Shown here in pieces: positions 10,826 to 38,360 of a stretch of DNA of 38,360 nucleotides (within the stretch, counting starts at the first letter, position 1; each line of letters starts with the position of its first letter). Origin of the DNA: a virus. Below the pieces are notes generated by a model. It was not told the origin of the DNA. It worked only from the letters and a program-made list of their open reading frames with translations, and searched no databases. A program made the translations under genes and the position numbers. The DNA is taken from positions 1-38,360 of IMG/VR virus record IMGVR_UViG_3300025889_000335; one strand, given 5' to 3'.

Positions 10826-12492
10826 ATCAAACCTCCTGGAATGTAGATCAGTTTCCAGCTGGTGAAGATGGTACCAGGCAGCGCAATCACCGACATGCGC
10901 AGTGAGCAGTAGGCGCCGAGGCCATCGGCGCCCAACCATGCAAAGAACGCCGCATCGGCGTCGCTCCAGATTGCCGTGTCCCACACACCAGTATCCCACA
11001 GATCACCCTGGTCTCCGGTGAACGACGGTGTACCGGCGGTTCCGCGCGTAGCCCATTCGGTATTGACCTGCGCACGTACGGCGGGGGCTGATGCGGACTG
11101 AAACATGGGCATGATGAGCTGCGGCCGCTTCAGCGCCACCGGATTGTCGGGATCGGTGGCATAGGCGGTTTGTATATCACCAACAACGGATGCGCCCACC
11201 GTGCCATCGTAAAGTTCATCATCCGTATTGGCGGTGAATGCCTGGCCCACCTTTCCGCCCAGCATGCCAAAGTAAAGCTCGCCGTCCAACTGCTCCATGC
11301 ACACCATGGGTATCTTGGAGAACGTGCTCCATGCTGTACCCAGCATGGAGAAAATGTACTGCTTGGAAGAAACACCATTGTTGCGCGGAGTAGCAATGAT
11401 GACAGACTGCTCAGCAATGTGCGGCAAGATCTGCCAGTAGCGCTGACCACGAGTGGCTTTGACGTCTGCGCCAACCACTTCGCCGTAGCGGTAAGCGGGG
11501 GTGTCATTGACGCTTTGCGGGTCGATAAGCCCGCGCGCAGACATGAGCTTGGACAGGTACTCCACACCGCGTTCCGTTACGATGCCGACGTCTCCGCCTT
11601 GCTTTGAGAAAAACCTGCGACCCTCCGGCACAATGCCGAGATACCACGTGCCCGCAAGGCTAAACGTGTCGGCGCCTGCAGGATCGGTGCCTTCGTAGAT
11701 CAGCACATCGCCCGACGTGCTGATGATTACAAGCTTGTCGTCTACGCCGTCGCCGCTGTCTACGGTCCACGAAGTGATGCCCGCAATGGCGCCGCCATGC
11801 TTGAACAGCGGCCCGAAGTCAAACAGCGTACTGTTACCGGTGATGGCGTTGACGTCCAGATAAAACGCCTGGGTGGTATTGCTGCGCACAAACCACAGCC
11901 TGTTCTTCCACGACGTCACGTAATCGAAGTCGGCTGCGTAGGCTGCACCATCACCCGTGATGCCTGCAGTGCGGCTGACCCATCCGCCAACCGCATCGTA
12001 GGTGGCATATCCGTAGCCACCAGAGCATGCGCACAGGTAGCTGGCAGCAGAGTTGGTGAAGTTCACGTAGCTGAACTCACCGGGCTGATCTTGACCAGAC
12101 GCGGTAAGCACAGCTGACGGAGTGGTGGCCTCATCGGACCTATCCGTTACATCGTAGATTTTCTCATCGGACGCGCAGGCGAACAGCTTATTGCCATAGG
12201 CAGAGCTGCCAGGGGACGGGCGGTATGCCATCAGCGTATTGACGTCAGCCTCGGTGCCAATACCGCCGATGTTAGTGGTCCACCGTTTGTACCCACCGCG
12301 AAGCTCGTTGCCGTAACGACGCACCCACCAGTTATTGAGAATGGTAGCGGTAAGCGGATCCTGCGCCGTCAGCGGTGACGTCGCGTTCAGCCCTTTGGTG
12401 GGGGCTGGGAAGATGGCCGCCTTGTTGATCTGCGTCTGCGACGCAGTGCGGGTCGGGCTCTTCCGTGTGATGGGGGTCGGCTTGAGCGGCAT
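10822..12492 (-). CDS. Tail nozzle/stabilisation protein
   Basis: The 556-residue protein matches the podovirus tail-needle-side stabilisation or nozzle family (P22 gp10 / T7 gp12 functional class). The N-terminal block (KGLNATSPLTAQDP, then ATILNNWW and LRGGYKRW, about 33-70) is characteristic. The rest is beta-rich and propeller-like, with repeated G-x-L-Y/W strands. It would close the tail tube. The gene overlaps the adaptor stop (TGATG); its ribosome site is weak, suggesting coupling to the adaptor. Confidence 0.78.
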   Translation of the reverse strand: MPLKPTPITRKSPTRTASQTQINKAAIFPAPTKGLNATSPLTAQDPLTATILNNWWVRRYGNELRGGYKRWTTNIGGIGTEADVNTLMAYRPSPGSSAYGNKLFACASDEKIYDVTDRSDEATTPSAVLTASGQDQPGEFSYVNFTNSAASYLCACSGGYGYATYDAVGGWVSRTAGITGDGAAYAADFDYVTSWKNRLWFVRSNTTQAFYLDVNAITGNSTLFDFGPLFKHGGAIAGITSWTVDSGDGVDDKLVIISTSGDVLIYEGTDPAGADTFSLAGTWYLGIVPEGRRFFSKQGGDVGIVTERGVEYLSKLMSARGLIDPQSVNDTPAYRYGEVVGADVKATRGQRYWQILPHIAEQSVIIATPRNNGVSSKQYIFSMLGTAWSTFSKIPMVCMEQLDGELYFGMLGGKVGQAFTANTDDELYDGTVGASVVGDIQTAYATDPDNPVALKRPQLIMPMFQSASAPAVRAQVNTEWATRGTAGTPSFTGDQGDLWDTGVWDTAIWSDADAAFFAWLGADGLGAYCSLRMSVIALPGTIFTSWKLIYIPGGLM

Positions 12493-13241
12493 CAGCTACC
12501 GTAGCCCGTATCGGGCACAGAGGTGTAGCCATTGATGAGCGGCACGCCAGGGCGACGTCCGACATTGAGCACCGGCGCGCTGCCGGTATTCACGCCCACA
12601 CGCGAATTGTAGGCAATAATGAAGTCGCGCGTGGCGGCCTCCGAATCGAAGCCCTTCCACTCGAGGTACTTGGCGCGGCCCAGCAGCGTGATGAGGTTCG
12701 TGTCCAGCACGAACGTATCGCCGTTCTTATCCGCCTGGTCCTTGTACAGGGTGGCGTCATCGGCGTCGATCACCTGCCCGCGGGACAGGTACATGTAATC
12801 GAAGTCGACCGCGCTGTCCGGGGCGTTCATGAAGATGAGCTGGTCGCCGCGAAGCTGCCAGGTCAGCTGCATGAGAGTACCGACGTTCCTGACCGTGTAG
12901 GCCATCCACGACTGGTTGCTGATCGGGCCGGCCGCGGGAAGCTGCGAGCTGGAATCCCACTGCGACTGGTCGATGAACTTGTAGAAATCGTCGGGCAGGT
13001 CGAACGCGGTTTCCTGTTCGCCTGGCGTGCCGGCGACCACGGACAGCGACGTCTTGATCGTCAGGTCCTGCCAATCGTACATGGTCAGGAGCTCCAGAAG
13101 CCCGTTGTTCACGGCCGCGCCCATCTGGAGTACGGCGGAGTCCGTAGACCCCGCCGGATCTGCGGGAATGGGATGCCCTACCATCCGAGCAATCTGCTGG
13201 ATGATGTCCCCGTACGTGCTGACGGAAATGGTGTAGGGCAT
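12492..13241 (-). CDS. Head-tail adaptor (tail tube A-like)
   Basis: The 249-residue protein resembles podovirus adaptor proteins that connect portal and nozzle (T7 gp11 / P22 gp4 class). Helical N-terminal region (TYGDIIQQIARMVG, VNNGLLELLTMYDWQDL, about 9-60), a beta-rich middle (DLPDDFYKFID near 81-91), and a C-terminal helical part. It precedes the nozzle gene with a one-base overlap, as these two proteins commonly do. AAGGAG lies six bases before the ATG. Confidence 0.72.
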   Translation of the reverse strand: MPYTISVSTYGDIIQQIARMVGHPIPADPAGSTDSAVLQMGAAVNNGLLELLTMYDWQDLTIKTSLSVVAGTPGEQETAFDLPDDFYKFIDQSQWDSSSQLPAAGPISNQSWMAYTVRNVGTLMQLTWQLRGDQLIFMNAPDSAVDFDYMYLSRGQVIDADDATLYKDQADKNGDTFVLDTNLITLLGRAKYLEWKGFDSEAATRDFIIAYNSRVGVNTGSAPVLNVGRRPGVPLINGYTSVPDTGYGS

Positions 13242-13250
13242 CCCGACTCC

Positions 13251-13829
13251 TTACTTCTTGCGCTGCGCTGCGCGCAGTTCCTCGATGATCTTCGCCTGGT
13301 CCTGGATCGCCGCCTGCATTGCGGCGATGTCGCTGTCGCGCTTCTGGAGCTCGGCCTGCACCTTACGGAGCGGCTCCGCGTCCTTGGCCGCGGCCAGGAA
13401 GGCCTCCGCGCGCTGCTTGAGCTGGGTGGCACCCGGCAGCTTCTGGCAGATGTCATCGCGGAGCACCGCCATGTGCTCCACCGTGCGCACGCCGAAGTAG
13501 CGGAACTCCTCGACCTGCGACAGGCTCAGAATGCCCCACGCTTCGAGCGGGGTGCCGACCAGGCCTTCGTTGTCGTGGTTTTTCTTCCAGTGCTCGTACT
13601 GCTGGGCGAAGCGCGCCTTGTCGGTGTTGGTCACCGGGCGCAGGATGATGTTGTTCCGGTCGCCCGGCACCATGATGTTGATGTACTCGACGTCCTCGAA
13701 GACGGGCCGTCCCGCCTCCTGGGACTTCTCGCCGTTCTGCTTCGCCTTGACGAAGAACCTCACCGCGAGGCGCTCGTCGCCCTGCCGGGGCTTTACGAAG
13801 TCATTCACATCGAAGTCTGCTGTTTGCAT
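13251..13829 (-). CDS. Structural-operon protein with C-terminal coiled coil
   Basis: The 192-residue protein has a mixed N-terminal half (residues 1-110, including NIMVPGDRNNIILRPVT) and a long Ala/Gln/Glu helix (about 125-190) with heptad-like spacing. I recognise it only as a type common between capsid and tail-adaptor genes of podoviruses. It may be a head-completion or minor head protein. AGGAG stands seven bases before the ATG at 13829. Confidence 0.65.
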   Translation of the reverse strand: MQTADFDVNDFVKPRQGDERLAVRFFVKAKQNGEKSQEAGRPVFEDVEYINIMVPGDRNNIILRPVTNTDKARFAQQYEHWKKNHDNEGLVGTPLEAWGILSLSQVEEFRYFGVRTVEHMAVLRDDICQKLPGATQLKQRAEAFLAAAKDAEPLRKVQAELQKRDSDIAAMQAAIQDQAKIIEELRAAQRKK

Positions 13830-13889: not shown

Positions 13890-14159
13890 TTACTTCTGCC
13901 AGAACAGCGTGACGTTGATGGACCCGCTCACCAGCGTCATGTAGCAGTCCGAGGTGAACTCGCCCGGGAACCAGTGGAACCCGATGGCGGGGGTGATGCT
14001 GCCCGACTTCGCGGTTCCGCCGGAACCGCCGTCCTTGAAGTTGATGATGCCGGACGAAGTGCTGTTGACGTAGAAACCGACCAGCTTGGCCGGTACGCCG
14101 GAGGGCGACACCTGACCCGAAGCGGCCAGGTTGGTCATCGAATTGCCGGGGTTCATCAT
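13890..14159 (-). CDS. Small beta-rich structural protein
   Basis: The 89-residue protein is rich in Ser, Gly, Thr and Val and looks all-beta (VGFYVNSTSSGIINFKDGG, then SGSITPAIGFHWFPGEF). Small proteins of this kind next to capsid genes are often head decoration or fibre-like proteins; I cannot name the family. The ATG at 14159 overlaps the TGA of the methyltransferase fusion (ATGA); a second ATG one codon later is equally possible. Longer upstream readings overlap the methyltransferase coding frame and are rejected. Confidence 0.65.
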   Translation of the reverse strand: MMNPGNSMTNLAASGQVSPSGVPAKLVGFYVNSTSSGIINFKDGGSGGTAKSGSITPAIGFHWFPGEFTSDCYMTLVSGSINVTLFWQK

Positions 14160-15463
14160 GCCTGTTCCCTCATGACATAGAAAATGGACGAGATGGACTC
14201 CTCTTCCGAATGCAGGATGCGGAAGCCCATATTCCTGAACTGCTGCGCCCACCACAAGTGCGGGCGCACCGTCAGATGCAACGAGTGGCCGGCCATGGCG
14301 CCCATGTTGTCATGCACGGTACTGACCTGGAAGAAGCATTTGCCGACGCATGCCATGATGTTGTGTATGGCGCTCTGCACCTGCTCGGTGGGGAGGTGCT
14401 CGAGCACGTCGGCGCAGTACCCGAAGTCTGCCTTGACGTGCATGGGCAGCGTCAGGTCCGCCTGCGTAAACGGCAGGTCCACGCCAGGGTCGCGTGAGTT
14501 TTCGGTGAAGTCCACCAGGTGCACCTCGAAGCCAGCGGCAGCAAGCTTCACGCCAGCGCGACCGGTGCCGCACCCGAAGTCGATCAGGGACCCGCGACGC
14601 TCCGCCACCAGGTCGAGGAACACGGGCACGACATTCTCGCCAGGAGCGAGCTCACGGTATTCGGGGTGGTTCCACATTTCCGAGTACTTGACGGCTTCGG
14701 CCACCTTGTCCGGATTGTGGTACATGTCGGGCAGCAGTCCGTAACCATGCACGTGCAGCTCCACGCCCAGCGCTTTGAGGTCTGCGCTGGTACGCTGAAA
14801 CTTCTCGGCCTGCATTTTCATGGTCAACGAGCACAGATACGTCTTGCCATTGAAATCCACGTAGGCGCACGGATCGCCATCGTTGATCTTCTGGTGAATG
14901 GCGTGGGACGAGTCGCCCTCGTGTGACGAGTCATACCCGAAGCAGTGCATCTCGCGGTAGCCCATGGCATAAGCCACGCATAGCGCGGTATTGCCCACGG
15001 ACGCTGCGCCTCCAATCAGCGCGTACTCGGGATAGTCGTCGGGGAATAGCTCCTCGGTCTGTGGCCCCACATCCAGCTGCCACAGGACTGCATCGGGTAC
15101 CGCATCGAACAGTGCGGGGTGAACTTGCGACGCAAACAGATGCGTACCGGCCGGCCCGATCAGAGACTTGGTTTCGATGCGGGCATCCAGAATAACTTGG
15201 TAATCCACGTAGATACCGTGGAGCGCCAGGAAATTTGCGCAGTTGTTGAGGGCGAACACCGTATGGCCGGCCTTGGCCATTTCGCGGATCTTTTCCAGAT
15301 CCTTCTTGATGCTTGGACCGGAGCCGCACATAATGGCGACACCGCAGTGGGCGGGGGCGGCGGTCAGCCACTTGTTCGGCCGACGAGAGTTGGCGCGGAT
15401 CTGCTCGAACAGCACCTCGTCGTCGGTGTTGCAGACGACATTGATGGGCAGCACCAGGGGCAT
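14156..15463 (-). CDS. DUF115 (Maf/MptE-like) - SAM methyltransferase fusion
   Basis: The 435-residue protein has two domains. Residues about 40-240 resemble DUF115/MptE-like domains, also found in Maf flagellin glycosyltransferases: GSGPS (47-51), ALNNCANFLALHGIYVDY (71-88), and GGAASVGNTAL with a buried DSSHEGD loop (177-184). Residues 280-435 are a class I SAM-dependent methyltransferase: LIDFGCGTG (293-301), acidic VDF (317-319), and ADVLEHLP (351-358). I chose the ATG at 15463 with GGGAG five bases upstream; the ATG at 15523 is possible. It sits between decoration and head genes, so it may modify a virion or surface glycan, but this is inference. Confidence 0.75.
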   Translation of the reverse strand: MPLVLPINVVCNTDDEVLFEQIRANSRRPNKWLTAAPAHCGVAIMCGSGPSIKKDLEKIREMAKAGHTVFALNNCANFLALHGIYVDYQVILDARIETKSLIGPAGTHLFASQVHPALFDAVPDAVLWQLDVGPQTEELFPDDYPEYALIGGAASVGNTALCVAYAMGYREMHCFGYDSSHEGDSSHAIHQKINDGDPCAYVDFNGKTYLCSLTMKMQAEKFQRTSADLKALGVELHVHGYGLLPDMYHNPDKVAEAVKYSEMWNHPEYRELAPGENVVPVFLDLVAERRGSLIDFGCGTGRAGVKLAAAGFEVHLVDFTENSRDPGVDLPFTQADLTLPMHVKADFGYCADVLEHLPTEQVQSAIHNIMACVGKCFFQVSTVHDNMGAMAGHSLHLTVRPHLWWAQQFRNMGFRILHSEEESISSIFYVMREQA

Positions 15464-15529: not shown

Positions 15530-15562
15530 AAAAAATCCCGGAAGCGCCCCCGCGCTCCCGGG
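15530..15562 (-). terminator. Rho-independent terminator after the decoration gene
   Basis: On the minus strand, an 11-bp stem (15562-15552 with 15547-15537, one G-U pair) closes a four-base loop and is followed by A then six T. This is a textbook intrinsic terminator 20 bases after the decoration stop. It would cap the highly expressed capsid-decoration transcript and reduce downstream expression; readthrough or another promoter must serve the genes to the left. Confidence 0.88.
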
Positions 15563-15581: not shown

Positions 15582-16121
15582 TTACGTGACGCGACCCTGC
15601 TTGGTCGGGCGCTGCAGCATGACGCGCACCGTGGTGCGGCTCGCGGCCGCGCTCGCCACGGCAGCCACGGCGGCACCGTCGATTTCCTTGCCCGAGCCGG
15701 TGCCGGCGATCAGGCCGGTGGTGAGCACGCCGACCGCGGCACCCGCCGCGAGCGAGATGGTGCACGTCTTCTTGACCGTCGCCACGCCGCCGATCTGGTA
15801 CCAGCCGTACTGGCTGGCGACGTTCGCCGACATGGCGATCGCGATCGGGCGGGGGATGTTGCCACCGACCGCGCAGAGCGTGGTCTGGTACGTGCTCGGG
15901 TCGTAGGTCACCACCGAGCCGACCGCCGTGCTGGCGACGCCGAGCAGGTAGATGAACTCGCCCTCGCCCTGGGACGTGCCGCCCTGGGACTGCGACGAGG
16001 TCGACGGCGTGGCACCGTCGTCGACGCCGCGGACGATCGTGCCGAGCGCGTGGTTCTGGGTGGTGCTGGTGACGTTGAGCGGTTGGGCCCCGATGTAGGG
16101 CGAGCTGAGCTTGTAGGTCAT
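15582..16121 (-). CDS. Capsid decoration-like protein
   Basis: The 179-residue protein directly follows the major capsid gene and has the Gly/Ala/Ser/Thr-rich, beta-rich make-up of phage capsid cement proteins. It includes a GTIVRGVDDG segment (27-36), YLLGVASTAVGSVVTYD (58-74) and a C-terminal Ala-rich stretch. The order capsid then decoration, with its own terminator, supports high expression. AGGAG lies six bases before the ATG. No other function is suggested. Confidence 0.68.
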   Translation of the reverse strand: MTYKLSSPYIGAQPLNVTSTTQNHALGTIVRGVDDGATPSTSSQSQGGTSQGEGEFIYLLGVASTAVGSVVTYDPSTYQTTLCAVGGNIPRPIAIAMSANVASQYGWYQIGGVATVKKTCTISLAAGAAVGVLTTGLIAGTGSGKEIDGAAVAAVASAAASRTTVRVMLQRPTKQGRVT

Positions 16122-16194: not shown

Positions 16195-17199
16195 TCAGCT
16201 CGAGATGAGGCGGCCGTGCTTGGCCTGGTTGTTGCAGGTCAGCGCCCCGGCCCAGGCCAGGATGGCGACCTCGGCGTCCTGGTTCACCGCGTAGCGGCGG
16301 TTCGGGCTCAGCGGCACCATGTTCCGCTTCGAGTGCGGGCGGTACTTGATGTGCTTCGTGTTGAGGAAGTACATCGTCTTGGTCGTCGCGCCCGACCCGT
16401 ACGCGGTCGACGGGTAGTACAGGCCGCCGTCGAGCACCACGTCCGCCGTCATGAACTGGACGGTGTTGAAGCCGAGCTTCGCCTTGTTGCCGTCGGTGAA
16501 GCGCTGCTGGCTCTGGAGCGACGCCATGTACAGGCCCCACATGAACTGGTCCGCGATGATGAGGTCCGGCGCATCGCGGCCCTGCACGAGCAGGGACCAG
16601 ATGTAGTTCATGTAGCCCTGGATGGTTGCCGAGGTCATTGCCGCCGGGTTGTAGCAGGCGGGGCGCCAGAACGACCAGGTGGCGCGATCGATCGAGCCGT
16701 ACGTGCCGGTGTCGACGCGGTTGTTGGTCGGCGAGGCGTCGACCGGGACGATGCCGTCCAGGCCGATGATCTGCTTGCCGCCGGAACCCGTGCCGTCGCC
16801 GTAGAAGGCGGCGGCCATCAGGTTCTCCATCGTCGACTCGGCGACCGTGAGGCGCTGGTCGAGCAGGTCCATCATCTGCTGCGGCCCCGCGTTCTGCAGC
16901 TCCTCGAGGCCGGAGATGACCACCGGCACCGCGGCCTGCTTGAGGTTGAAGCGCGCGGCCGAGATGACGTCCTGGGCCGCGACCGGCAACAGGTCGTAGC
17001 CGCTGTACCATCCGGCGTTCGAGTTCTCCGCGAACGAGATCTCCTCGAAGATCTCGCTGCCGCCGTCCACGTTCTTCACGTTGCCGCGCGCCTTGATCCA
17101 CGCGAGGCCGGCGTTGTTGTTGGTGACGTTGTCCTGGACGACCTTGGTGCGGTTCTCGATCGTGGTCGCCACGATGTCGGTGACGGTGGGGAATGCCAT
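16195..17199 (-). CDS. Major capsid protein
   Basis: The 334-residue protein lies between scaffold and decoration genes and has its own promoter and a strong ribosome site (GGAGG seven bases before ATG). It has the expected make-up of a phage major capsid protein of the HK97-fold type: an N-terminal helix (TVTDIVATTIENRTK), a beta-rich middle with FNLKQAAVPVVISG (85-98), and a DLLDQRLTVAESTMENLMAAAFYGDG helix region. No protease is encoded, in keeping with the separate scaffold. Two long frames overlapping it are shadows. Confidence 0.82.
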   Translation of the reverse strand: MAFPTVTDIVATTIENRTKVVQDNVTNNNAGLAWIKARGNVKNVDGGSEIFEEISFAENSNAGWYSGYDLLPVAAQDVISAARFNLKQAAVPVVISGLEELQNAGPQQMMDLLDQRLTVAESTMENLMAAAFYGDGTGSGGKQIIGLDGIVPVDASPTNNRVDTGTYGSIDRATWSFWRPACYNPAAMTSATIQGYMNYIWSLLVQGRDAPDLIIADQFMWGLYMASLQSQQRFTDGNKAKLGFNTVQFMTADVVLDGGLYYPSTAYGSGATTKTMYFLNTKHIKYRPHSKRNMVPLSPNRRYAVNQDAEVAILAWAGALTCNNQAKHGRLISS

Positions 17200-24576: not shown

Positions 24577-24765
24577 ATATGGAACACCATGCGCCGCCCG
24601 TTGCACGATGCGCTCCGGCGGCATAGGCTATCTAACTAGGGAGTCGTACGGTGACCGGGTTGCTATGCGCGACCGAACAATCGCTTGGGCCCGCTGTCGG
24701 CGAGGTCCACCCCCCTGGGGCCTGTTCTTGTTGGCCCACTGACTTGCTCGGCCGAGCGCAGAGGT

Positions 24766-25102
24766 GTTAGTGCCCACTAACTTGTCAGTAGCGCCGAGCG
24801 CGCAGACCTTCAGGTTGCGCTCGCGCGGCCGTGACGTTAGTGGCAACTAACTAAACCCGCGCGCAAAGCGCGTAGCACGCGGCGCCGCCGGGTAATGTTG
24901 GTGACCACTAGCGCTACGCCCTACGCGCACCGCGCGCCAGCCTTGTTAGTGACTACTAACTAGTAGGCTGCCGAGCGCGCTGCGCGCAGCTGCCTGCAAT
25001 GTTAGTGGCCACTAACTTACCTGGCCGCGCCGAGTGCATAGCCGACATACGAAGTCGGCTATCTGGCTGCGCGCAGCTGCCGTTATGTTAGTGGCCACTA
25101 AC
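24766..25102. repeat. Six copies of 16-bp palindrome GTTAGTGRCCACTAAC
   Basis: Copies start at 24766, 24836, 24897, 24945, 25001 and 25087, spaced 48 to 86 bases. The last two are perfect (GTTAGTGGCCACTAAC). The left arm is almost invariant, while the right arm varies more, which gives the sites a direction. Copies five and six extend upstream as a longer repeat including GCTGCGCGCAGCTGCC (24979-24994 and 25066-25081). Such an array suits a multimeric DNA-binding protein: a regulator, an initiator or a packaging subunit. Confidence 0.92.
25038..25062. other. Hairpin between palindromes five and six
   Basis: ATAGCCGAC and GTCGGCTAT form a perfect 9-bp stem with a 7-base loop. There is no adjacent T-run, so it is not a clear terminator. 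It adds to the density of structure in the control region. Confidence 0.6.
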
Positions 25103-25314
25103 CTATCGCTACGCGCGAAGGGCCGGGCTCGCATAGCGAAACTATCCAATAAACTTGTTTACAAGATGGGAATTATATGCTAGCCAAAATAACTCAGCAT
25201 AGTGAAACAAATAACTATGTACAAACTAGTTAGGATGTGATCTAATAATATCGTCATCACAACGATGACACTGGATCTTAGGATCCAGAATCTTTGACAA
25301 CCAGGAGCCACACC

Positions 25315-25605
25315 ATGTCCGAGCAAGCCAAAGCCATTGCCTCGTCCAAAGTCGTCCAGCCGATGAAGTCCAAGGCCAAGACGCCCAAGTCCAAGCAGGT
25401 CAAGGACGCCGCGCCCAACTCGTGGGCCGAGAAGTACAAGGCGGGGACGATCGGCCGACTGATCGCGGAGGCGATCGTTGGCGGCAAGATGACCAACGAG
25501 CAGATCCTCGAGGCCGTGAAGAAGGAGAAGAAGGACGCCAAGACCACCTACGGGTGCGTCGCGTGGTACCGCAGCGCGGCCCGCAAGGCCGGCGTCATCA
25601 AGTAG
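25315..25605 (+). CDS. Small basic DNA-binding-like protein in the control region
   Basis: The 96-residue protein has a Lys/Ser-rich disordered start (1-35) and a compact helical domain (43-94): GTIGRLIAEAI, MTNEQILEAVKK, then TTYGCVAWYRSAARKAG. The same domain recurs at 180-228 of the 260-aa protein encoded at 36711, with CIAYYR for CVAWYR. It looks like a small helix-turn-helix-type DNA-binding module. The ATG at 25315 has AGGAG seven bases upstream; the TTG at 25294 does not. It is flanked by palindromes on both sides and followed by a strong terminator, so it is expressed alone and may bind the palindromes. Confidence 0.75.
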   Translation: MSEQAKAIASSKVVQPMKSKAKTPKSKQVKDAAPNSWAEKYKAGTIGRLIAEAIVGGKMTNEQILEAVKKEKKDAKTTYGCVAWYRSAARKAGVIK

Positions 25606-25609
25606 CGCG

Positions 25610-25647
25610 AAGCCCAGAGACCGCAAGGTCTCTGGGCTTTGTCTTTT
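25610..25647 (+). terminator. Strong rho-independent terminator
   Basis: A perfect 13-bp stem (25610-25622 with 25627-25639) closes a GCAA tetraloop and is followed by TGTCTTTT. It ends the 96-aa transcript five bases after the stop and isolates it from the early genes. Confidence 0.92.
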
Positions 25648-25668
25648 GCGCTCGGCGCGCGCTGCCAT

Positions 25669-25731
25669 GTTAGTGACCACTAACGTATCGAGCTGCGCCG
25701 AGCGCATCGAGCCATGTTAGTGACCGCTCAC
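25669..25731. repeat. Two further copies of the 16-bp palindrome
   Basis: Copies at 25669-25684 (GTTAGTGACCACTAAC) and 25716-25731 (degenerate right arm, GTTAGTGACCGCTCAC) follow the terminator, each preceded by GCCAT. Spacing is 47 bases, as in the left cluster. Confidence 0.88.
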
Positions 25732-25968
25732 GCTAGGCGCTCTGCCCGTCCACCCACCACTTATTAGGCAACCCAGCATGCCTCGGGCGGAGCGCGGATT
25801 CCGTACGGCCTCACACAACGCGCTCTGCGGCGCTGTCGGAGCGCGTCGCGCAGCGGGTTCCGCGGTTTGCGGGGTGCGATGGCCGGCCAGGCGCAGTGCG
25901 CGGGGCACAACGTTGGAAAACCGTGGCGCATACGTTGATGTTGCGCAAGTCGTTGATTTTATTAACTT

Positions 25969-26100
25969 TGTACCACGTTTGTACGTTTAAGCCACTTTTT
26001 CTCCTAAATTTATATATATATACACTATATCTAATTAGATATTATATATACATTCATTACTTTAATTGAATTTGATCAAAAAACGTATAAACGTGGTACA
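25969..26100. repeat. Large inverted repeat around an AT-rich core (candidate origin)
   Basis: The arms 25969-25989 and 26080-26100 match in inverted orientation over 19 of 21 bases (TGTACCACGTTT...ACGTTT). They flank about 90 bases of very AT-rich DNA that contains a perfect 16-bp palindrome. The inner ACGTGGTAC is repeated a third time at 26309-26317. An easily melted core within repeat arms, next to early replication genes, is what a phage replication origin would look like. Confidence 0.65.
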
Positions 26101-26136
26101 TACGCAATGAAATCAGCCGCTTGCGCGACATCCAAC

Positions 26137-26154
26137 GTATGCGCCGGCGCATAC
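26137..26154. repeat. Perfect 18-bp palindrome GTATGCGCCGGCGCATAC
   Basis: This is an exact dyad. Half-sites of the form GGCGCATAC recur at 25925-25933 and 26277-26285, so a protein may recognise this sequence in the origin-like region. Confidence 0.8.
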
Positions 26155-26172
26155 CTGAACCTGGTGCACCCT

Positions 26173-26304
26173 ACAAAACGATAAACACTGGCATTCCATT
26201 TTTTACGATTTCGTGCTGCCTACAAAAAGATAAATAGCGTAACAAAAATTCCTTTTCGCAAAAAATGGAACGCGTCGGCGCATACCTTGGACAAAAAGAT
26301 AAAT
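26173..26304. repeat. Three direct repeats of ACAAAAAGATAAAT
   Basis: Copies at 26173-26186 (two mismatches), 26222-26235 and 26291-26304 lie in the same orientation, 49 and 69 bases apart. Between them is an inverted pair TTCCATTTTTTACG (26194-26207) / CGCAAAAAATGGAA (26257-26270), 13 of 14 matching. These resemble iterons of an origin. Confidence 0.8.
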
Positions 26305-26353
26305 TCAACGTGGTACCGAGGCAAAGCGCATCCCGCTGTGCGCAACTCGAAAC

Positions 26354-26369
26354 GTTAGTGGCCGCTAAC
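26354..26369. repeat. Ninth copy of the 16-bp palindrome
   Basis: GTTAGTGGCCGCTAAC lies 45 bases before the -35 box of the first early promoter. A protein bound here could control early transcription. Confidence 0.85.
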
Positions 26370-26413
26370 GTGCGGCGCGCGAAACGACGCCCGCCATCGG
26401 CGGCGTCCCACGA

Positions 26414-26443
26414 TTTACATGGGCATTCTGGTCGCGATACACT
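26414..26443 (+). promoter_or_regulatory. Early promoter, TTTACA-N18-TACACT
   Basis: The -35 TTTACA (26414-26419) and -10 TACACT (26438-26443) are 18 bases apart, ahead of the early membrane-protein cluster. The sequence TTTACATGG is shared with the promoter at 30449, and the downstream GTTCGC is shared with the -10 region at 28078. Confidence 0.6.
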
Positions 26444-26481
26444 GTTCGCGTCTTGCCCCGTAACCACTAGGAGACTACCAC

Positions 26482-26613
26482 ATGAACACTTTGAATATGC
26501 GGCTGCGCGCCGCGCTCCGCAACCCGCTGGTGCAGTCCCACATCCACTCCGCCGTCAGCGTCACGCTGTTCTCGTTCATCGGCACCTGCCTGGCCCTGTG
26601 GGTGATGCGATGA
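26482..26613 (+). CDS. Small single-TM early protein, 43 aa
   Basis: The 43-residue protein has a basic N-terminus (NMRLRAALRNP) and one hydrophobic segment (about 23-42, AVSVTLFSFIGTCLALWVM). AGGAG lies eight bases before the ATG, and its TGA overlaps the next ATG (ATGA). It is the first gene after the early promoter. Small membrane proteins expressed early can block superinfection or disturb the host membrane, but no specific function can be assigned. Confidence 0.65.
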   Translation: MNTLNMRLRAALRNPLVQSHIHSAVSVTLFSFIGTCLALWVMR

Positions 26614-26858
26614 GCGGCCGGGGGCGTAGGCTCAAGACCAGGCTGCCGGTGGGAAGGCTCCCCCGCTACAGCGTCACGCTGTACCCGTACCCCGACAAGA
26701 CGGTGCGCGTGACGCACGACGGCTGCACGCTCAAGTCGATCGTGACCTTCTTCGTCGACTCGTGGGGCATCACCGATCGGGAGCTCCATGCGATCGTGCA
26801 GCTCCCCGCGGGCGCGCAGTTCCGCTGCAGCGTCATGACGGTGCGGAGGACGCGATGA
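26610..26858 (+). CDS. Early hypothetical protein, 82 aa
   Basis: The 82-residue basic protein starts at the ATGA junction with the previous gene (MSGRGRRLKTRLPVGRLP) and ends in another ATGA junction. It seems beta-rich (YSVTLYPYPDKTVRVTH). The longer reading from 26265 crosses the promoter and palindrome and is rejected. I do not recognise a family. Confidence 0.65.
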   Translation: MSGRGRRLKTRLPVGRLPRYSVTLYPYPDKTVRVTHDGCTLKSIVTFFVDSWGITDRELHAIVQLPAGAQFRCSVMTVRRTR

Positions 26859-27016
26859 GCGAACCCGTGCTGCAAGACGAGGTCAAGGTGCTGACCGCGG
26901 CGCAGCTCCAGGCCACGCGCGCCGTGCACTGCATGTACGGCATGCTGATCGGCGTGGGGACGGGGGTGTCGCTGACCCTTGCGCTGTTCATCCTCACCGG
27001 CCTGAAGGTGTGCTGA
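26855..27016 (+). CDS. Small single-TM early protein, 53 aa
   Basis: The 53-residue protein has a soluble N-terminal half (SEPVLQDEVKVLTAAQLQAT) and a hydrophobic C-terminal segment (about 29-51). It overlaps its neighbours as ATGA upstream and TGATG downstream, so it is part of a tightly coupled early operon. No family is recognised. Confidence 0.6.
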   Translation: MSEPVLQDEVKVLTAAQLQATRAVHCMYGMLIGVGTGVSLTLALFILTGLKVC

Positions 27017-27096
27017 TGGACCGCGACAACTGGGTGCTGACCATCATGCTGCTGCTTGTGGTGCTGTGCGAAGCGGCAGAGCGCTGGCTGAACTGA
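27016..27096 (+). CDS. Very small single-TM protein, 26 aa
   Basis: The 26-residue frame (MDRDNWVLTIMLLLVVLCEA then AERWLN) is one membrane helix with charged ends. It begins at a TGATG overlap and ends 11 bases before the next start, filling the gap exactly. GAAGG lies eight bases before the ATG, within the previous gene. The fit suggests translation, but a frame this short is weak evidence. Confidence 0.5.
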   Translation: MDRDNWVLTIMLLLVVLCEAAERWLN

Positions 27097-27107
27097 AGGA
27101 GGACCGC

Positions 27108-27647
27108 ATGAACATCTTCTATCTGGACGACGACCCGCGCAAGGCGGCGCGCTACGCCTGCGACAAGCACGTGGTCAAGATGATACTCGAGACGGCGCAG
27201 CTGCTGTCCACTGCGCACCACGTGCTCGACGGCTACAAGCTCGGCATCTACAACCCGACGCACCAGAACCACCCGTCGGCCGTGTGGGTGCGCCAGTCGC
27301 ACCGCCACTATATGTGGCTGTACGAGTACTGGGGCCATCTGCACGACGAGTGGGCGTACCGTTGGCGCCACGCGCGCATCCACAAGTCGGTGGCGCAGTG
27401 CCGCAGCGTGCTGATCCATCTCCCGCGCCAAATACCCACAGGCGGCTTCGTACAGCCCCCGCTCTGCATGCCGCCGCAGTTCCATGTGCCAAACGCGGTG
27501 TCCGCCTACCGTGACTACTATGTGTGGGAGAAGCGGCGCATCGCGACCTGGACTCGGCGCTCCATTCCCAAGTGGTACAGCTCAAGGCTGGCCAAGGTCG
27601 GCCCCATTTTCCTCAAGCGCCACAACTCTGCATCGGAGGTGTCATGA
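27108..27647 (+). CDS. Phage family related to pyrimidine-dimer glycosylase-like proteins
   Basis: The 179-residue protein has a pattern I know from a conserved phage family sometimes annotated as pyrimidine-dimer DNA glycosylase-like: an N-terminal FYLDDDPRKAARYACDKHVVKMI (residues 3-25), then NPTHQNHPSAVWVRQS (about 62-77) and WLYEYWGHLHDEWAYR. Conserved His, Lys and Asp near the start could be catalytic. The ATG at 27108 follows AAGGAGGACC; the longer frame from 27066 has no site. DNA-repair function is not established. Confidence 0.6.
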   Translation: MNIFYLDDDPRKAARYACDKHVVKMILETAQLLSTAHHVLDGYKLGIYNPTHQNHPSAVWVRQSHRHYMWLYEYWGHLHDEWAYRWRHARIHKSVAQCRSVLIHLPRQIPTGGFVQPPLCMPPQFHVPNAVSAYRDYYVWEKRRIATWTRRSIPKWYSSRLAKVGPIFLKRHNSASEVS

Positions 27648-28027
27648 GCCGCAGCGCAAAGCGCGCCGCGCAGACCCGCGCGTTCTACCGGTGGGAGGAC
27701 GAGAACATCCCCACCGGCGTGTGGCTGCGTTCCCGTGACGAGGCGCAGCGCATCGCGCAAGAGGTGTGGCGCTGGGCGCGTAGCCAACCGCGCTATGCCA
27801 AGCGTGCGCGCCTCTGGCGGGTGCCGACGATCCACTTCGGGCCGGGCGTGTTGCAGGCAGGTCGCATGCTGTCGTACTGCGAAGGGCACCTGAAGATCGT
27901 GCTCTCGCCGTCGCAGCGCAACATGGCGGTGCTGCTCCACGAACTGGTGCACGCGCTTGGCCCGCACACGCACGGCAAGCGGTTCCAGGAACTGTACATG
28001 AGCATGACCATTCAGTTCTTGGTCTGA
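27644..28027 (+). CDS. HExxH zinc metallopeptidase (SprT-like)
   Basis: The 127-residue protein carries the zinc-peptidase signature HELVH at 99-103 with further histidines in PHTHGKRF (107-114), the layout of SprT/wss-like metalloproteases. There is no signal peptide, so it should act in the cytoplasm, perhaps on a host protein or a DNA-protein crosslink. It starts at an ATGA overlap with the previous gene and closes the early cluster. The substrate is unknown. Confidence 0.72.
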   Translation: MSRSAKRAAQTRAFYRWEDENIPTGVWLRSRDEAQRIAQEVWRWARSQPRYAKRARLWRVPTIHFGPGVLQAGRMLSYCEGHLKIVLSPSQRNMAVLLHELVHALGPHTHGKRFQELYMSMTIQFLV

Positions 28028-28077
28028 CTGACAGATACTGCCGGCCGTATGTGCTCCCTCTGCGCGACGGTCGGTCG

Positions 28078-28083
28078 TATAAT
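28078..28083 (+). promoter_or_regulatory. Consensus -10 TATAAT before the replication operon
   Basis: A perfect TATAAT lies 39 bases before the leader ORF. No -35 resembling TTGACA is present at 16-18 bases; GC-rich sequence stands there instead, so an activator may be needed. The context GTCGTATAATGTTCGC resembles the early promoter at 26438. Confidence 0.5.
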
Positions 28084-28121
28084 GTTCGCTCCCCGTAACT
28101 CCTTGATTCTAAAGGACAACC

Positions 28122-37879: not shown

Positions 37880-38360
37880 CTGGGAAAAGGATTACCTTGC
37901 GCTCTGCGCAAACGTGTCCGCCAACGGATACAAGGAGCCGTCGCGCGTCGGCGGCACGTACGCCCTGCCCGGGCAGTCGCTGCGCATCGAAATGCCGCGG
38001 GGTAAGTTCCCGTTGCTGACCACGCGGAGGATGTTCTACAAGCCGGTGTTCGGCGAGCTGGCGGCCTTCCTGCGTGGCGCAACGCGCAATGGGCAGTTCA
38101 TGAAGTACGGGTGCAACTACTGGACGGCCAATGCCCGTGCGGCGCACCCGCACCAGGGCTGGAAAGACGAGGACCTGCCGCTCGGCCCGATCTACGGCGC
38201 GCAGTGGCGGAAGTTCAACGGCGACATCCGCTACGACCAGCTGGCGGATGCCCGCAAGATGATCCGCGAGAATCCGTCCTCGCGACGCATCATCGTCACC
38301 GCCTGGAACCCGCTGCAGACTGCGTACATGGTACTGCCCCCGTGCCACATCATGTTCCAG
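37869..38360 (+). CDS. thyA: ThyA-family enzyme, N-terminal part (continues at position 1)
   Basis: This is the first 164 codons of the 284-residue ThyA-family protein; the frame continues at window position 150. It starts with GTG (VANNWEKDYLALC), overlapping the previous stop. It contains PLLTTRR (48-54), GELAAFLRG with catalytic-type Glu63, NYWTANA (83-89) in the active-site Trp region, LGPIYGAQWR (105-114), SRR (138-140) and the LPPCH catalytic Cys159. The N-terminal region fits both thymidylate synthase and dCMP-modifying relatives; Asp190 in the second part favours dCMP. Confidence 0.92.
   Translation, partial: MANNWEKDYLALCANVSANGYKEPSRVGGTYALPGQSLRIEMPRGKFPLLTTRRMFYKPVFGELAAFLRGATRNGQFMKYGCNYWTANARAAHPHQGWKDEDLPLGPIYGAQWRKFNGDIRYDQLADARKMIRENPSSRRIIVTAWNPLQTAYMVLPPCHIMFQ
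38212..38360. repeat. Contig-end overlap, right copy
   Basis: This segment equals positions 1-149 except for C at 38219 and 38234, where the left copy has T. See the left copy; trimming one gives a circle of 38,211 bp with an intact ThyA-family gene. Confidence 0.95.

Follow-up and report, generated by a model that had tools for sequence, protein, structure and literature searches.

What does a protein that joins a DUF115 domain to a class I methyltransferase do inside the head operon of a phage? The question is raised by one gene, here called F, in an IMG/VR virus record of 38,360 nucleotides (IMGVR_UViG_3300025889_000335; "the window" is this whole stretch) that represents an Mx8-like phage. 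An earlier note, made from the letters alone, had placed the fusion after the terminator of the capsid-decoration gene and before the head-tail genes, and both statements hold up. On the minus strand, the decoration gene (DEC) and the major head protein gene lie upstream of F, with a hairpin in between, and a homologue of p50 and a tail protein gene follow downstream (Table 1).

Table 1. Features of the window around F (all on the minus strand)
Feature	Positions	Strand	Basis
Tail tubular-type protein	12492..13241	-	family match
p50 homologue, downstream border of the cargo slot	13251..13829	-	family match, synteny
89-aa ORF, possible small virion protein	13890..14159	-	overlaps F stop codon (ATGA)
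F, DUF115 (Maf-like)-class I methyltransferase fusion, 435 aa	14156..15463	-	Pfam, AlphaFold2, Foldseek
Class I SAM methyltransferase domain of F, residues 287-411	14231..14605	-	Pfam, alignment
DUF115/MptE-like (Maf_flag10) domain of F, residues 43-181, fold to about residue 245	14921..15337	-	Pfam, alignment, model
Intrinsic-terminator-like hairpin between DEC and F	15537..15562	-	11 pairs, then T6
DEC, capsid decoration (cement) protein, 179 aa, proposed F substrate	15582..16121	-	PHROG 29386, model, linkage
Ser/Thr-rich insertion of DEC, 14 residues, DGATPSTSSQSQGG, candidate surface loop	15978..16019	-	alignment
Major capsid protein (MCP), Mx8 type	16195..17199	-	PHROG 9953 (major head protein)

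The start codon of F is the ATG at 15463, with a GGAG before it at normal spacing; the longer mechanical open reading frame, up to 15676, runs into DEC. The protein scores above the Pfam cut-offs for MptE-like PF01973 (E=2.9e-14, 53.6 bits against a curated 34.6) and for Methyltransf_23 (E=2.2e-8, 34.4 bits against 27). In an alignment of 36 rows, 33-55% identical to the window's F and used for the AlphaFold2 model too, 33 residues are invariant, so the motifs of both domains are kept. In the DUF115 domain these include G49 and S51, which belong to the GxGPS loop, N73, D93, Q113, D178, H187 and Q191, and in the methyltransferase domain D295, G297, G299 and G301 (DxGxGxG, in a region reading DFGCGTG), D318, D352, E355, H356, H396, W404 and W405. 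The earlier note had suggested structure prediction as a check, with the lack of a DUF115-like fold counting against it, and such a fold was found: the model (mean pLDDT 90.8) retrieves the Magnetospirillum flagellin glycosyltransferase Maf (5mu5) in Foldseek at E=1e-8, besides many class I methyltransferases. The fold thus agrees with the PF01973 profile, and the second domain, with its Rossmann-like fold, its glycine-rich motif and an acidic residue after strand 2 (D318), is a class I SAM-dependent methyltransferase.

F is nevertheless not a full-length Maf. It has the same central domain as the Maf enzymes, with the GxGPS and H-x3-Q region conserved, but in place of the N- and C-terminal domains of the three-domain Maf architecture it carries the methyltransferase at its C-terminus, and its neighbour in the phage head operon is a decoration protein and not flagellin, for which no gene was identified in the phage. 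A profile of the DUF115 domain alone gives 56.7 bits to Maf as compared to 22.6 bits to the solved 6-hydroxymethyl-dihydropterin pyrophosphokinase (the true MptE enzyme), whose best match ends before the H187/Q191 motif common to F and Maf. The domain, called Maf/MptE-like in the earlier note, is therefore Maf-like rather than MptE-like. The NCBIfam flagellin-modification model PseD reaches F only at E=0.007 over 55 residues. The Maf DUF115-type domain is described as resembling the sialyltransferase Cst-II (PMC11339370); for this likeness we rely on that publication, since our own profile found a sialyltransferase at best at E=0.67.

The operon around F is of a known type. The window's MCP is 54-60% identical to the capsid proteins of Stenotrophomonas phage BUCT555 and Myxococcus phages Mx8/Mx9, and the order portal, small protein, p47, capsid, decoration, p50, tail tubular is common to the window and these phages; DEC is distantly related to the decoration proteins of Mx8/Mx9, but F is missing from all three phages. 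In Mx8, Mx9, ppBjS10J-1 and ctMlz233 the protein in the decoration position is followed by p50 with zero genes between, in BUCT555 four small genes lie there, including a holin and an endolysin, and in the window F and the 89-aa ORF occupy this slot. The 89-aa ORF has one relative (in locus L007, 57%) and matched nothing when Pfam and PHROG were searched. Among relatives lacking F (L089-L167) the slot was seen by eye to be empty or to hold small fibre-like, LamG-like or proline-rich proteins, and that of L108 an unrelated SAM methyltransferase-like ORF. The slot is probably a cargo site for head-surface genes.

Whether F belongs to the backbone, to its neighbours or to neither was addressed by scanning loci with each partner separately, because our first comparison was biased by the choice of loci. 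Both scans rank by similarity to the window, and their proportions describe its nearest relatives, not the whole family. Among the matches listed in the DEC-only IMG/VR scan, 77 loci could be assessed and 74 of these have F: in 66 it lies no more than 181 nt from DEC, in 8 longer sequence intervenes; the DEC-family contigs without it were L238, L246 and L256. Among the matches listed in the MCP-only scan, it was present in 1 of 62 assessable loci, and that one is a contig that shares 100% identity with the window in each of the F, DEC, capsid, p50 and tail tubular proteins. Within the matches listed, the first scan rules out that F is random cargo unrelated to its neighbours, and the second that it is a core gene of all Mx8-like phages.

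Pairwise distances among 65 dereplicated F-positive loci gave an F-DEC correlation of 0.67, which remained at 0.605 (permutation p 0.001) with capsid, p50 and tail tubular regressed out; the corresponding partial correlations were 0.115 for F-p50, -0.05 for F-MCP and -0.11 for DEC-MCP. As p50 adjoins F or lies near it, the F-DEC correlation does not come from closeness alone. The window is itself a mosaic, with MCP, p50, tail tubular and stabilisation proteins nearest to F-negative contigs (L089-L091) and DEC and F nearest to F-positive phages; judged by these similarities, it is a natural recombinant between an F-negative backbone and an F-positive DEC/F pair. Since the incomplete contig L197 resembles it in portal (66%), DEC (72%) and the possession of F, the window probably belongs to a small F-positive lineage. 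A tree-based independent-pairs test pointed in the same direction, with only 5 pairs, about 2 concordant and 0 discordant (p about 0.5). At five F loci (L070-L074) no relative of DEC could be detected. Part of the linkage could come from recombination at gene borders that the phages share. The functional link between F and DEC is well supported by these comparisons.

The partner itself, DEC, falls in PHROG 29386 (virion structural protein). Its model (pLDDT 78.9) matches a capsid chain of cyanophage Pam3 at E=9e-4, the single match at E<0.001, and more weakly (E>=0.009) decoration-kind capsid proteins of HFTV1, phi29 (the head-fibre base), TW1, T1 and Sf11. A gene adjoining that of the MCP and a fold common to cement proteins, firmest for Pam3, mark DEC as a cement protein.

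Two domains, intact motifs, a syntenic position and linkage to one DEC type lead us to propose, with somewhat better than even confidence, that F glycosylates DEC in the cytoplasm and methylates the product, DEC and F together forming a two-gene capsid-coat module. DEC, as a cement protein, would be produced in large amounts, and a partial terminator after it would reduce expression of the dedicated enzyme; comparable hairpins occur in 48 of 130 DEC-F gaps, as against 4 of 130 shuffled ones, which fits a predicted high level of the coat protein and a low level of F. The Maf-like domain would then move an activated sugar from the host pool onto Ser/Thr in DEC loops, before or during capsid decoration, and the fused methyltransferase would add a methyl group to the sugar or a nearby residue. 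The resulting virion would carry many copies of a small modified glycan, presumably to the benefit of the phage. There is precedent in Maf enzymes, which O-glycosylate flagellin, a self-assembling surface protein (PMC11339370), and do so before its export (PMC4065374). Glycan-type enzymes recurring in the slot also count for the glycosylation of DEC: in L072-L074 the fusion is extended at the N-terminus, ahead of DUF115 and methyltransferase, by a domain that matches a glycosyltransferase in PHROG (E=5e-15 in L072), and in L003 F shares the slot with a polysaccharide pyruvyltransferase and a second DUF115.

As to the sugar donor, our guess would be a CMP-activated acidic sugar, for instance a nonulosonic acid, or Kdo. 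Both Neu5Ac and Kdo can serve CbMaf as donors (PMC11339370). NeuB was present in 3 of 6 genomes carrying a relative of F, weakly in one of the three, and was absent when looked for in the isolate genomes with the split version described below (G002, G003). A nonulosonic donor is therefore not general, and its supply by every host is not supported. Kdo is common in Gram-negative bacteria, and is a possible donor for F, though again a guess.

Acceptor sites may be sought in DEC itself. The window's DEC has the Ser/Thr-rich insertion of Table 1, which is missing in all 26 aligned relatives. In a joint alignment of 59 F-positive and 9 F-negative sequences of the DEC family, a serine or threonine stands at position 157 in 59/59 against 0/9, at 143 in 97% against none and at 164 in 93% against none. 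These differences, together with that at lysine 118 given below, count in favour of our proposal. Nine columns separate the two sets, and a hydroxyl residue occupies 3 of these 9 as compared to 32 of 164, not an enrichment, so the Ser/Thr positions serve as leads to acceptor sites and not as proof; a conserved acceptor Ser/Thr in DEC is to that extent unproven.

The same alignment also gives an argument for a different chemistry. Lysine 118 is present in 59/59 DECs that accompany F and in 0/9 of the others, and Aeromonas and Shewanella flagellins have methyl-lysine beside Maf glycans (PMC9290775), so F might modify DEC otherwise than as a glycosyltransferase, by methylating a side chain such as lysine 118, while DUF115 only binds the substrate or uses another activated phosphate donor. 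We regard this as unlikely, if worth keeping in view: the DUF115 motif residues are invariant, the fusions of L072-L074 add a glycosyltransferase-like domain to the very same pair, and lysine 118 may have a structural role.

Alternatively, F might act on another late product, such as the small slot proteins or head or tail fibres, or on the host surface, its link to DEC being hitch-hiking in a recombination unit. Small fibre-like proteins do occur in the same slot, with or without F, and Maf proteins elsewhere modify surface appendages (PMC11339370). This is a less probable reading still, for little correlation of F with p50 or MCP is left after allowing for DEC, and the small slot proteins are sometimes missing where DEC is nearly always there. 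The earlier note had left the target between capsid or fibre proteins and the host surface. Our data fit an enzyme that is encoded among the structural genes and acts on the virion, and the linkage of the two genes narrows the target to the adjacent DEC; for alteration of the host surface we found nothing pointing to a host target, and such a role is hard to explain when F tracks one DEC type across phage backbones. Least of all do we credit a metabolic F with a true MptE-type pterin pyrophosphokinase, a reading suggested by the MptE-like names in Pfam and UniProt, rejected on the profile scores and the shared Maf motif above, with no pterin gene identified near F, and leaving the position of F and its linkage to DEC without explanation.

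Relatives of F were found by profile scan at no fewer than 147 IMG/VR loci, of which 80 were examined, nearly all in the order capsid, decoration, F, (small protein), p50, tail. The phage collection searched contains no such fusion in a cultured phage and a single, partial relative, in siphovirus MW202621.1; in BFVD the fold matches lie among uncultured phage proteins, labelled MptE-like. In MW202621.1, where the DUF115 match is weak, and in prophage-like regions of Lysobacter, Pseudoxanthomonas and Variovorax, a methyltransferase relative and a DUF115-like gene directly follow the major capsid gene. This version differs from F in that the two are separate genes, in reversed order, with a Gp13-type capsid. 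Reversed order within a fusion (methyltransferase-DUF115) is seen in L079 and L082, in other contexts. That unrelated phages repeatedly pair methyltransferase with DUF115 next to their capsid genes speaks for a target on the virion.

To our knowledge, phage virion glycosylation has been demonstrated in few groups only, mycobacteriophages above all. In Che8, Corndog and Myrna, phage enzymes glycosylate capsid and tail proteins (Freeman et al. 2023, cited in PMC12363180), which resembles the role proposed for F; these enzymes are described as actinobacteriophage glycosyltransferases, unlike the DUF115 enzyme F. The literature searched gave no report of a DUF115 enzyme, or of a cement protein and enzyme moving as a pair, and nothing relevant on phage DUF115/MptE-like proteins; within the limits of that collection it agrees with the earlier note that no function has been described for such a fusion. 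This suggests that the F/DEC pair is a variant of phage virion glycosylation without earlier description in that literature. We further speculate, a little short of even confidence, that cement protein and dedicated glycosyl-/methyltransferase move between backbones as a portable capsid-coat cassette, providing a large group of uncultured environmental phages with a methylated glycan coat by means of a Maf-type enzyme related to flagellar glycosylation.

The pairing of F with DEC points to viruses that chemically modify the proteins of their own coat, and virion glycosylation, with Maf-type chemistry and a cement protein as target, could be common in environmental phages. F and DEC offer a concrete candidate enzyme-substrate pair, for which F-positive and F-negative relatives can serve as natural controls; the relatives in prophages of cultured bacteria are tractable. 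Our results also speak against the pterin-enzyme label that such phage proteins bear in databases.

Some minor observations concern the genes around F and the window as a whole. An HNH/AP2-like ORF (by eye) sits between DEC and F in two loci (L007:7015-7935 and L018:7316-7966). An ORF adjoining F in L041 (5589-6167) looked sulfotransferase-like by eye and had no Pfam or PHROG match, and searches of Pfam and PHROG likewise gave none for a family of small proteins of ~120 aa. These follow F, sometimes in tandem, in L029, L030, L032, L049, L057-L064 and others, and lie upstream of p47 in L005, L006 and L046. The last 126 bases of the window (38235-38360) are an exact repeat of 24-149, and 14 more bases match past one mismatch upstream; the record is therefore probably a complete genome, though classed as linear by IMG/VR. 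Two divergent gene blocks of the window are separated by ~3.5 kb (24600-28100) without convincing genes and with locally lower G+C.
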